Below, one piece after another: positions 21,812 through 27,168 of a stretch of DNA of 36,604 bases. The position numbers and the translations under genes were made by a program. Location of the stretch: the NCBI GenBank assembly GCA_012729055.1, contig JAAYDW010000039.1, forward strand, positions 1-36,604. The letters run 5' to 3'. The notes under the pieces are model-generated. The model ran no database searches and was not told the origin of the DNA. It worked only from the letters and a program-made list of their open reading frames with translations. Within the stretch, counting starts at the first letter, position 1; the number at the start of each line of letters is the position of its first letter. This DNA is from Deltaproteobacteria bacterium. GTDB taxonomy: Bacteria > Desulfobacterota > Syntrophia > Syntrophales > Smithellaceae.

Positions 21812-22492
21812 TTATCCGTTTCCTTCCGCGAGATCGACAAGGGCGCCGCGGTCGAGAATGCGGATGGTGCGGCCTGACGCCCGGAGAATGCCGTCTTCGG
21901 CCAGTTTGCGCAGCGCCCGGGAAAGCGCTTCGGGCGTGGCGCCGAGGATTTTTGCCAGTTCGCGCTGTGTGATGGCCAGCTCCAGGCGGTCGGTCTCCCC
22001 GTGCGACTGCGCCAGCGAATGCAGCAGGAACGAGGCGAGCCTTCCCGGAATTTCCTTGAGCGCCAGCGATTCGATGAGCGTCATGGAATCCTTGAGGCGC
22101 CGGGACAGGATTTGAATGATATTGAGCAGCAGTTTGGGCTCTTTCAGGGCCGTGCTTTCCATGAGCGTTCCGGGAATTAAAATGACGGAGCTTTCCTCAA
22201 GGGTCATGGCGCTGGCCGGAAAAGCGTCGGTGGCAAACGCCGTGCACAATCCGAAGGGATCGCCCGGCCCCAAAAGCTGGATCGTCTGCTCCTTGCCTTC
22301 CGGCGAGCTTTTGTAAAGCTTCAGCCTTCCCGTGAGCACCACGTAGAATGACTTGATCGGATCCGCCTCGCCGATGATGATTTCCTGGGCGGGATATTTT
22401 CGATAAAGCGCCTGCGCCGCCAGCAGACGCAGGTTTTCCGGCGACACTCCCTGAAAAAGATCAAATGTTTTAAGATGTCGTACAATGTCCAT
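21812..22492 (-). CDS. Crp/Fnr family transcriptional regulator
   Basis: The product has 226 residues from ATG 22492 (GGAG 8 nt upstream); the frame opens further upstream but without similarity. The N-terminal cyclic-nucleotide-binding-type beta barrel includes a FYVVLTGRLKLYK strand pair and LLGPGDPFGL. A long dimerisation helix follows. The C-terminal winged helix contains ITQRELAKILGATPEALSRALRKL, whose E..SR recognition helix is that of FNR/DNR-type proteins that read TTGAT. There is no N-terminal Cys cluster (one Cys in total), so it is not a [4Fe-4S] FNR and could be DNR-like, sensing another signal. A perfect FNR box lies 17 bp before its start codon, implying autoregulation. Confidence 0.9.
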   Translation of the reverse strand: MDIVRHLKTFDLFQGVSPENLRLLAAQALYRKYPAQEIIIGEADPIKSFYVVLTGRLKLYKSSPEGKEQTIQLLGPGDPFGLCTAFATDAFPASAMTLEESSVILIPGTLMESTALKEPKLLLNIIQILSRRLKDSMTLIESLALKEIPGRLASFLLHSLAQSHGETDRLELAITQRELAKILGATPEALSRALRKLAEDGILRASGRTIRILDRGALVDLAEGNG

Positions 22493-22508
22493 AAAATAAG
22501 CTCCGGCG

Positions 22509-22522
22509 TTGATCCAGATCAA
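22509..22522. promoter_or_regulatory. Perfect FNR-type operator TTGAT-N4-ATCAA
   Basis: TTGATCCAGATCAA is fully palindromic in its half-sites. It lies between the divergent regulator gene (start 22492) and thioredoxin gene (start 22622). Its centre, 22515.5, is about 23 nt from the regulator start codon, a position suited to repression. A TG-TATTCC element at 22543-22550 would place a transcript start near 22557, exactly 41.5 nt from the centre, the class II activation spacing; the -10 match is weak. Confidence 0.8.
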
Positions 22523-22621
22523 TGACGGGGACGAAAGGATCCTGTATTCCTGTGATCGTGGACGGGAAATTTTTACCATAAACAATAAAAGAGACCAAAT
22601 AAAATATCGGAGGAGAAAGAG

Positions 22622-22957
22622 ATGAGTATCAATGAATATGTTAAACACGCGGATGATCGGAATTTTTCGGCGACGGTTTTAGAGGAAGCCGGGCCGGTGC
22701 TGGTGGATTTCTGGGCGCCGTGGTGCGGACCCTGCCGGGCGATCGGTCCGGTGCTGGAAGAGGTGGCGGCCGCGTATCAGGGTAAAGTCGCCGTCGTCAA
22801 GGTCAATGTGGATGAGAATCCGGCGACTGCGTCCCAGTACGGCGTACGCAGCATTCCGACGCTGCTCGTCATTAAAAACGGCAAGGTCAAGGAATCCCAG
22901 ATCGGGCTGATTTCCAAAGAGCAGCTGGCGGCTATGCTGGACCGGAATTTGAATTGA
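22622..22957 (+). CDS. trxA: Thioredoxin
   Basis: A cytoplasmic disulfide reductase of 111 residues, the normal length. The active site WCGPC is at about residues 34-38 after VLVDFWAP. The cis-proline lies in RSIPTLLV and the C-terminal helix is normal. GGAGGAGAAAGAG precedes the ATG. It is transcribed away from the Crp/Fnr regulator across an FNR box, so its expression is probably tied to redox or oxygen/NO state. An intrinsic terminator follows 25 bp after the stop, before two tiny ORFs that may encode redox-active selenoproteins. Confidence 0.96.
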   Translation: MSINEYVKHADDRNFSATVLEEAGPVLVDFWAPWCGPCRAIGPVLEEVAAAYQGKVAVVKVNVDENPATASQYGVRSIPTLLVIKNGKVKESQIGLISKEQLAAMLDRNLN

Positions 22958-23012: not shown

Positions 23013-23093
23013 CGCAACGCCGGCAATAATGTCGCTGGTCAATTGCCGGCAATTGGGCTAAACTTAAGACACATTGTGTAAAAGGCGGATGCT

Positions 23094-23246
23094 ATGAAGG
23101 AAATCCTGATTCTTCTTTTGATCGTGGCCGTGTGGATCTTTGTCCAGGCCTGGCTTTTGCCCAAACTGGGCGTTTCCACCTGAATGCGCCCAGCTTGTCC
23201 GGGTCCGGACAAAAAGGACAAGGAAAGCCATCCGGAAAATCCTTGA
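23094..23246 (+). CDS. Candidate small membrane selenoprotein (in-frame TGA at 23181)
   Basis: From ATG 23094 (AAGGCGG upstream) 29 codons encode a basic/acidic start, one hydrophobic helix (about residues 4-21) and LLPKLGVST, then TGA. Reading through the TGA as selenocysteine gives 20 more residues, UMRPACPGPDKKDKESHPEN plus Pro, ending at TGA 23244-23246. The result is a 50-residue single-span protein with U and a Cys five residues later (UxxxxC), a plausible redox pair, and a charged tail. A hairpin follows the first TGA at a SECIS-like distance. The position behind thioredoxin fits a redox role. The alternative is a 29-residue peptide that simply stops. Sec machinery is not visible in the window, so this is a hypothesis. 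Confidence 0.45.
23195..23212 (+). promoter_or_regulatory. Candidate bacterial SECIS hairpin 1
   Basis: TTGTCCG / CGGACAA forms a 7 bp stem with loop GGTC. The loop GGU lies 19-21 nt after the TGA at 23181-23183, the same distance as in Escherichia coli fdhF. The bulged U of the fdhF element is not reproduced exactly. Confidence 0.4.
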
Positions 23247-23988: not shown

Positions 23989-24516
23989 CTATCGGGGAGC
24001 ATCCGGAAGACCGGAATTCCGGCCGGATTGCGCCTCGAGGATCAATTCGCCGGCAATCCGGGCGGCCCTTTCGGCGGGACGGCGGCATTTTTTGATGGCG
24101 TCGGCTTTCACGAATTCCATCCCTTCCCTGGGATCGGTGAGCTCGAAGCTGCGGCCGAAGATGCCGTGCTGCACGTCGCGGCAGTTGCATCCCCCGAATT
24201 CCGCTTCAAATCGCTTGCAAAGCTTGCGGGCCGCGGAGGTCGTCCGCGTCACCGCGGCCAGATCGTCGGCGCGTTCCCTGCCGAAGGCCAGCCCCAGCGC
24301 CATGATGCCGGCGACGACGGCGCCGCACGTCTCGCCGCGCAGCGCCATGCCGGGCATGGCGGTGGCCGCCTTCATCACCTCGGCATTGCCCAGGTGAAAA
24401 TGCTCCTGCAACGCCAGCAACGTGCCCTGCGAGCAGCTCGCAAACAGCTCTTCATAGTCGCCGGCCTTCTTTTCCAGCGCATCGAGCAGGGCTTCTGCAT
24501 TTTGATCAGGCTGCAT
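23989..24516 (-). CDS. C_GCAxxG_C_C family protein (divergent)
   Basis: The product has 175 residues. Family hallmarks in order are SCSQGTLLAL, ALRGETCGAVVAGIMALGLAFGR (the GCAxxG region, here TCGAVVAG) and GGCNCRDV. Such proteins are common in strict anaerobes and are thought to bind metals or redox cofactors through the conserved cysteines, but no reaction is established. It starts 3 bp after the ATC-hydrolase-like gene, in the same operon. A second family member lies at 26641-27168. The C-terminal tail is basic and slightly longer than usual. Confidence 0.75.
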   Translation of the reverse strand: MQPDQNAEALLDALEKKAGDYEELFASCSQGTLLALQEHFHLGNAEVMKAATAMPGMALRGETCGAVVAGIMALGLAFGRERADDLAAVTRTTSAARKLCKRFEAEFGGCNCRDVQHGIFGRSFELTDPREGMEFVKADAIKKCRRPAERAARIAGELILEAQSGRNSGLPDAPR

Positions 24517-26640: not shown

Positions 26641-27168
26641 TTAAACCACCGGCATTTCCTGTTTTTTGTCTTTTTGGGCCTGTTCGTCGAGGATGATGGC
26701 AAGCGCCATGCGGGCGGCCTTCCCCACGAGCGTGGAGCAGCCTTCCGGCATTCCCGCGGCCAGGGCCGCCTTCATGTCTTCCATGTTGTAGAGGTTGAAG
26801 AAGCGGCCGAACTGTTTGACCTGGAGGTCATGGCAGCGGCAGGCGGAAAACTCTTTTACAAACTGTTCGTGAAACTGCTTGGCCAGAAGCAGCGCTTTGA
26901 TCTGCTTGCCCATTTTCGCCAGATCTTCTTTTTTGCGGCCGAAAAAGTAGCTGATAGCCATCGTGCCGCCGGAAAGGGCGCCACAGTGGCCGTCGCCGGA
27001 AAGTCCCACGCCGTCGGCAAATCCCGTGGCGGAGCGCACGACATTTTCGTCCTCCACGCCCAGGACTTCGAAGATGGCGGACAGCGAGCATTGCGCGCAG
27101 TTGCCGCCGCGAAGTTCATAAGCTTTCGCCCGTTTATAGACTTCTTCAATCATTTCTTCTTTGTTCAT
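26641..27168 (-). CDS. C_GCAxxG_C_C family protein
   Basis: The product has 175 residues and is a clear member: GGNCAQCSLSAIFEVLG near residue 22, DGHCGALSGGTMAISYFFGR (the GCAxxG-type core), and SACRCHDLQ. The conserved cysteines are all present, unlike the more divergent paralogue at 23989. The role is undefined; a redox-linked or metal-binding role is inferred from the cysteines and from occurrence in anaerobes. It is on the same strand upstream of the acyl-CoA synthetase gene but separated by a REP-like hairpin. GGAG lies 11 nt before the ATG. Confidence 0.85.
   Translation of the reverse strand: MNKEEMIEEVYKRAKAYELRGGNCAQCSLSAIFEVLGVEDENVVRSATGFADGVGLSGDGHCGALSGGTMAISYFFGRKKEDLAKMGKQIKALLLAKQFHEQFVKEFSACRCHDLQVKQFGRFFNLYNMEDMKAALAAGMPEGCSTLVGKAARMALAIILDEQAQKDKKQEMPVV

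Follow-up and report, generated by a model that had tools for sequence, protein, structure and literature searches.

A predicted 50-residue membrane selenoprotein, apparently undescribed and widespread in the Desulfobacterota

In the stretch of Deltaproteobacteria bacterium DNA analysed here (36,604 nucleotides, called the window), a 29-codon frame ends in a TGA codon that is almost certainly read as selenocysteine (Sec). This reading was drawn from the comparison of sequences and the incorporation of Sec has not been shown experimentally. The resulting 50-residue product is, with nearly as much confidence, predicted from its hydropathy to be a single-pass membrane protein. The explanation that best accounts for the whole, an inner-membrane selenoprotein whose Sec/Cys pair would be reduced by thioredoxin and would serve as a relay or sensor, is considered probable but is not backed by any experiment.

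The gene and its predicted product

The features of the region are listed below.

21812..22648, minus strand: CRP/FNR-type regulator gene, divergent from the thioredoxin gene, start uncertain (PF00027, PF13545)
22622..22957, plus strand: thioredoxin gene, 136 nt upstream of the selenoprotein gene (PF00085, 113 bits)
23081..23088, plus strand: AAAGGCGG, Shine-Dalgarno-like, 5 nt before the ATG (inferred by eye)
23094..23246, plus strand: putative selenoprotein gene, 50 amino acids, MKEILILLLIVAVWIFVQAWLLPKLGVST-Sec-MRPACPGPDKKDKESHPENP (read from the sequence and from relatives)
23103..23159, plus strand: predicted single membrane span, about residues 4-22 (hydropathy; range set by eye)
23181..23183, plus strand: in-frame TGA, read as Sec, residue 30 (inferred from the TGA in relatives)
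23195..23212, plus strand: bSECIS-type hairpin TTGTCCG-GGTC-CGGACAA, loop 23202-23205 (sequence, RNA fold, CP-tail relatives)
23196..23198, plus strand: Cys35 codon TGT, giving U-x4-C (Cys at +5 in relatives)
23244-23246, plus strand: TGA, closing stop of the selenoprotein gene

From the ATG at 23094, 29 sense codons with LPKLGVST as last residues run up to the TGA at 23181-23183, and frame translation of the 20 further codons gives MRPACPGPDKKDKESHPENP. The sequence-only reading had described this frame, its continuation past the TGA and a Cys five residues beyond it, and each of these elements was confirmed on the sequence.

The family was compared in a set of 202 distinct members, obtained from 225 rows by removal of duplicates, short stretches and stretches with N. 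The earlier rows of this set had been picked by the pattern P..G...TGA, and L227 was left out of the later ones, so that the invariance of P, G and TGA in it cannot count as evidence. The best 19-residue Kyte-Doolittle score (mean 2.40) reached at least 1.6 in 199 of the 202 members. The first five residues carry on average 0.47 K+R and 0.83 D+E, against 4.5 K+R and 2.3 D+E from residue 21 to the 15th residue after Sec, the comparison being unequal since five N-terminal residues are set against a longer C-terminal stretch. Taken with the positive-inside rule, this distribution of charges suggests that the protein spans the membrane once and holds its Sec-bearing tail in the cytoplasm. On hydropathy and charge, the protein would consist of one membrane helix with its N-terminus outside and a short charged cytoplasmic tail, and Sec30 and Cys35 would lie at the inner membrane surface.

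In an alignment of the window with 22 relatives, W14, Q18, L22, P23, G26 and C35 were invariant; the X at the Sec site of the alignments was entered by hand and is not evidence. In the 202 members, Cys was found at +5 after Sec in 183 (codon TGT in 107 and TGC in 76), not at +5 in 19, and within 12 residues after Sec in 197. L226, L241, L243 and L245 contain no Cys in the 19 codons read after Sec, so that in these members Sec may work with no partner in the same protein. Over codons +6 to +13, the differences between related sequences (596 overlapping pairs) amounted to 1211, 911 and 1562 at codon positions 1, 2 and 3. Part of this stretch is also hairpin; the higher number of differences at third positions is as expected if the tail is translated.

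Reading of the in-frame TGA

The proposal of Sec at this TGA would have been refuted if no homologue extended past it or if other types of stop were found there. Homologues were looked for, and 36 places were matched in 59 close-group genomes. The 32 places with E ≤ 3.1e-4 each contained exactly one TGA, and the 4 stop-free places were weak (E 0.04-0.09). Every phylum-wide match listed also contained a TGA. The Sec site was TGA in 139 of 139 loci read, namely 105 counted (as U or C only), 28 on the other strand and 6 read separately; these loci include duplicates, with the window present twice and some genomes present under two names. In a further 88 loci, mostly more distant, 87 had TGA at the site and one had TGA one codon later. 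No other stop was met at the site among the loci read. One criterion for a bacterial selenoprotein is a UGA that homologues share at a single position, the sequence being conserved before and after it; this was observed here. Together, the TGA of the relatives, the Sec machinery and a hairpin with compensatory changes strongly support the earlier proposal.

If the TGA were a true stop, the product would be a 29-residue membrane peptide and the conservation downstream would reflect an RNA element only. Termination competes with decoding at Sec codons, and a 29-residue product may therefore also exist. As the sole explanation, however, a true stop is barely tenable: no stop interrupts the first 13 codons past the TGA in 202 of 202 members (rows chosen with TGA in the pattern), the Cys at +5 is kept as an amino acid by both TGT and TGC, the site is TGA and never TAA or TAG in the loci read, and carrier genomes possess Sec machinery. 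A genome-wide reassignment of TGA was also considered and rejected, since the adjacent thioredoxin gene (22622-22957) terminates in TGA, which is thus still a stop in the source genome.

The source genome was searched for selA, selB, selC and selD, whose absence would have counted against Sec. All were present above the curated cut-offs (selB 355 bits, tRNA-Sec 76 bits, selA 599 bits, selD 379 bits), and the presence of this machinery, a further criterion for a bacterial selenoprotein, was thereby met. The selD match (L048, C51:96102-97031) itself holds an in-frame TGA, so that selD is a probable selenoprotein. The tRNA-Sec gene lies elsewhere in the genome; the whole window and the 4.9-kb selB locus yielded no tRNA gene, and Rfam returned nothing over gathering scores in either. 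Among 166 carrier genomes, 159 have selA and the other 7 (no selA match at E ≤ 1e-20) have tRNA-Sec over the cut-off, with selB over the cut-off in 6 and in pieces in G224. As all 7 have tRNA-Sec, the absence of selA is inferred to be probably an assembly gap. The co-occurrence of selA with the family is, taken alone, weak (Fisher p 0.001).

The hairpin proved to be exactly as claimed in the sequence-only reading, with 7 bp and GGT at nt 19-21 after the TGA; nt 12-18 pair with nt 23-29 around the loop GGTC. RNA folding gave -11.3 kcal/mol for 39 nt and -8.8 for the 21-nt core, and 32 of 200 shuffles were as good for the former (z -1.08) and 7 of 200 for the latter (z -2.35). The window hairpin is thus only modestly above chance and would prove nothing alone; the evidence comes from the relatives. 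RNAalifold found no consensus fold in 183 pooled U-x4-C sequences, probably because the register of the hairpin differs. When run by tail class, it gave a consensus for P and D and none for Q, S, R and E, and pairs were then counted by naming them in two tail classes. In the CP-tail class (33 distinct sequences, window included), 188 of the 198 cells of six pairs were paired, all six pairs were formed in 27 sequences, and the outermost pair 12-29 was C-G in 21 and T-A in 10. In the CQ-tail class (84 sequences, mostly Desulfobacterales-type), 467 of 588 cells of seven pairs were paired; pair 15-22 was T-A in 51 and C-G in 26, and the loop was AGGT in 61. The two outermost pairs of this class were often broken (47/84 and 53/84) and all seven were formed in only 19 sequences. 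Sliding one arm reduced the paired cells to at best 384/588 (CQ) and 89/198 (CP). None of 2000 shuffles matched the paired count of either class, a result that relatedness alone can cause. Other tail classes show different stems by eye. A lenient hairpin scan, positive in 200 of 202 members, had no control and was not counted as evidence; its comparison with mononucleotide shuffles gave a mean z of -1.78 versus -0.75 for an upstream control.

On the window fold and the two tail classes, a bSECIS hairpin downstream of the UGA, again a criterion for a bacterial selenoprotein, is present. The in-frame UGA, the hairpin directly downstream and the G in the first loop positions resemble the selenoproteins of the E. 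coli fdhF type, and the genome, with its selA, selB, selC and selD, resembles those in which SelB and bSECIS elements decode UGA. The insertion of Sec would be driven here by the hairpin directly behind the TGA together with these four genes. The window hairpin falls within all limits of the bSECIS model given in a 2026 review (PMC13188914): loop 3-9 nt, stem 4-16 bp, spacing 16-37 nt and MFE ≤ -7.5.

Unlike bacterial selenoproteins decoded by SelB and bSECIS, the family showed no Cys counterpart. Cys homologues, which had been expected beforehand, were not seen among the matches listed or the loci read. Such homologues are usual for selenoproteins without strictly defining them, and their absence here applies to the listed phylum matches, the genome-by-genome search being confined to this phylum. 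Because the Sec position was X in the alignments, homologues with Cys there should have been scored without any penalty. The 14 genomes with the weakest matches (G060, G081, G160, G166, G258, G266, G268, G321, G328, G341, G359, G360, G377 and G438) stood outside the TGA/Cys tally and the codon at the site was not read there. The broad alignment was also run against the genomes lacking a selA match (38 out of 39). Strong matches were obtained in 7, all with TGA; the only others were one partial, stop-free match (E 0.009) and one with TAA inside (E 0.04).

Gene neighbours and proposed function

Neighbours were counted in 169 loci (the window, L078-L157 and L158-L245), the shorter loci L010-L077 being left out. 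Labels were checked by Pfam on representatives for sigma, CRP, zf-HC2, Trx, MobB, Fe-S, FmdB, ArsR and CcdA and given by eye for the rest. In 29 loci a thioredoxin-family gene was located no more than 2.5 kb away, in 22 of them next to the selenoprotein gene and on its strand (28 and 21 by phmmer with the window thioredoxin); the other 140 have no thioredoxin-cluster gene within that distance. In the wider sample, 13 of 88 loci had such a gene within 2.5 kb versus about 1% expected, the expectation resting on 6 thioredoxin matches in the 3.36 Mb of the source genome, a density assumed to be typical. In 4 of the 13 (L169, L181, L194 and L195) the gene is TlpA/redoxin-type and on the opposite strand; the label of L194 was checked by Pfam. 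The loci are related, so that the counts are not independent events and the binomial p-value for thioredoxin proximity is too small.

Gene order varies: L188 reads ArsR-SEL-FmdB-Trx-CcdA (domains checked by Pfam), L201 ArsR-SEL-FmdB-Trx, L204 ArsR-SEL-Trx-CcdA, L228 and L235 SEL-FmdB-Trx, and L241 SEL-Trx. These changes between separate lineages argue for a repeated association with thioredoxin. The redox link with thioredoxin inferred earlier from the window has only partial support: the gene association recurs, in varied gene orders and separate lineages, but most loci lack thioredoxin. Within 2.5 kb, a CRP regulator was found in 17 loci, ArsR in 8 and CcdA in 7; the CRP-type gene is upstream in Syntrophaceae-type loci. 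The FmdB zinc ribbon lies within 2.5 kb in 30 loci and is the immediate same-strand neighbour in 29, including L171, L174, L179, L184 and L188. FmdB (PF09723) is thus a frequent neighbour but a separate soluble protein, whereas the family studied here is a membrane peptide. A selenoprotein form of FmdB was predicted from GOS data, according to PMC2398784.

A simple scan of the window found no terminator and no forward-strand promoter, and whether its thioredoxin and selenoprotein genes share a transcript remains undecided, given the 136-nt gap. Two ORFs of the window, 23989-24516 (-), assigned by clustering, and 26641-27168 (-), assigned by eye, resemble C-GCAxxG-C-C redox proteins; in L078-L080 and L151 a relative, whose family was named on L080, immediately precedes the selenoprotein gene.

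The Cys found within 12 residues of Sec in nearly all members and the thioredoxin-family neighbours support a redox role. As inferred from the neighbours, Sec30 and Cys35 may form a selenenyl-sulfide/selenol-thiol pair that would be reduced by the neighbouring thioredoxin, and the protein would serve as a redox relay or sensor at the membrane surface. The other partner would depend on the lineage: a CcdA/DsbD-type protein, FmdB, ArsR, or an ECF sigma factor with a zf-HC2 protein. This thioredoxin-linked function, in which reduction has not been shown, is favoured somewhat over its absence.

Alternatively, the Sec/Cys site might bind soft metals or metalloids at the membrane without thiol cycling, as could be suggested by the ArsR-family gene in 8 of 169 loci and by the FeoB-like genes (a 6-locus cluster) and CopA-like ATPase (3 loci) that recur nearby, labelled by eye. 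ArsR-type regulators, though, also sense redox or sulfur species, and each such neighbour is rare among the loci (among the 45 largest clusters listed). According to section 7 of PMC13188914, Sec may bind metals in some families (SaoB, SaoC and UXX-star). We consider this alternative to the thioredoxin-reduced pair unlikely.

Less likely still, the protein might be a small accessory subunit belonging to some membrane oxidoreductase, for instance one with the neighbouring Tat-exported Fe-S protein and cytochrome-b-like gene. An Fe-S/Tat gene was found within 2.5 kb in 15 of 169 loci and a cytochrome-b-like gene, labelled by eye, in 13, and the L099 Fe-S protein shows a similarity to HybA and HmcB that stays below the cut-off. 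Most loci nevertheless lack these genes, a complete complex could not be made out, and the cytochrome-like protein tested has no named Pfam or NCBIfam domain.

In 25 of the 169 loci (among them L088, L092, L094-L096, L099, L104 and L131), the selenoprotein gene is followed by an ECF sigma gene and then by a zf-HC2 gene. In 24 of these 25, a start codon of the sigma frame falls within the selenoprotein tail, which is read in a different frame: counted from the first TGA base, 19 have ATG at +40, 4 have ATG at +34 and L127 has GTG at +40. The sigma start would thus stand just behind the SECIS element. Such an arrangement is compatible with the thioredoxin-reduced pair and could also indicate that the selenoprotein is a redox or selenium sensor controlling a regulator instead of a thiol relay; in the Desulfobacterales-type loci, Sec decoding may in addition gate the translation of sigma. 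ArsR or CRP regulators adjoin the selenoprotein gene elsewhere, and the zf-HC2 protein of L120 is RsrA-like, although below the cut-off (33.7 versus 62.5 bits). Against a general sensor role, the sigma pair is absent from 144 of 169 loci, window included, in L140, which does have both genes, the tail contains no start codon, and start use and translational coupling are only inferred. Moreover, a zf-HC2 protein is a common companion of ECF sigma factors generally. The sensor without thiol relay is accordingly kept as a minority possibility. Only slightly more weight is given, and tentatively, to a joint reading of a Sec-obligate membrane microprotein acting as the selenol switch of the thioredoxin system, with Desulfobacterales-type sigma production gated by decoding of the TGA.

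Distribution and relation to known selenoproteins

The alignment of the window and 22 relatives matched 166 of 395 genomes of the phylum, and a broader alignment of 75 rows matched 167 of 395, in 111 of 246 genera. Two matches per genome were present in G015, G020 (the second partial), G075, G112 and G203, and in L116 and L117. In a collection of 84,980 species, 330 stretches were confirmed. The best 80 of these 330 all had TGA and bore titles of Deltaproteobacteria or Desulfobacterota groups, except a Proteobacteria bacterium (L099) and a Pseudomonadota bacterium (L119). No family match was found in plasmid records. In viral contigs, 12 stretches were matched, of which one (contig L246) was a relative, again with TGA; whether L246 is a virus, a provirus or a mis-sorted contig is undecided.

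The window peptide had no match in NCBIfam and, in Pfam, only DUF4808 (13.9 bits versus a 27-bit cut-off). The 75 members gave scattered weak matches and no convincing family in these databases, the best E being 0.0022 (ATP synthase subunit B, 2 members), with PF04602 at E 0.011 in 11 members. SELENOK and SELENOS of eukaryotes are likewise small, cross the membrane once and carry Sec in a tail on the cytosolic side; the likeness is one of architecture only and the SECIS type is different.

Table 1 of PMC13188914 comprises 119 prokaryotic selenoprotein families or subfamilies, none of which fits by name, motif or domain. Small Sec/Cys redox motifs are common there, as in this family, and TsoB is listed with UxxxxU, but no entry is listed with U-x4-C. 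Some entries have no motif and no topology is given; the comparison did not extend to PTHR and cd models or to the sequences behind the table. A literature text search for the motif matched only through the letters 'gistum', in papers unrelated by title. Table S3 of PMC2702500, which lists Sec proteins of Desulfobacterium autotrophicum, was outside the comparison. In the deep-Sep paper, D. widdelii PP31 is used as a test genome, the method is said to possibly miss selenoproteins without Cys homologues, and seemingly every known selenoprotein has Cys homologues. The PP31 genome carries the family member L088, and the members L087 and L154 come from Desulfonema magnum and Desulfocicer vacuolatum. 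The 29-codon frame before the TGA, the lack of any Cys homologue seen and the lineage-varying register of the hairpin make it likely that published methods miss the family. It is apparently undescribed and widespread in the phylum; an earlier mention is not excluded, supplementary Sec lists being outside the search.

A selenoprotein family is thus proposed in about 42% of the sampled genomes of the phylum (167/395). Apparently free of Cys versions, it offers a testable counter-example to the deep-Sep statement on Cys homologues, and its seeming avoidance of Cys is relevant to the question of why evolution keeps Sec. The results suggest that in sulfate reducers and syntrophs the thioredoxin system has a membrane arm dependent on selenium, and that a sigma factor may be coupled to Sec. 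If the joint reading were true, Sec would not be replaceable by Cys in this protein and selenium-dependent decoding would gate a stress sigma factor.
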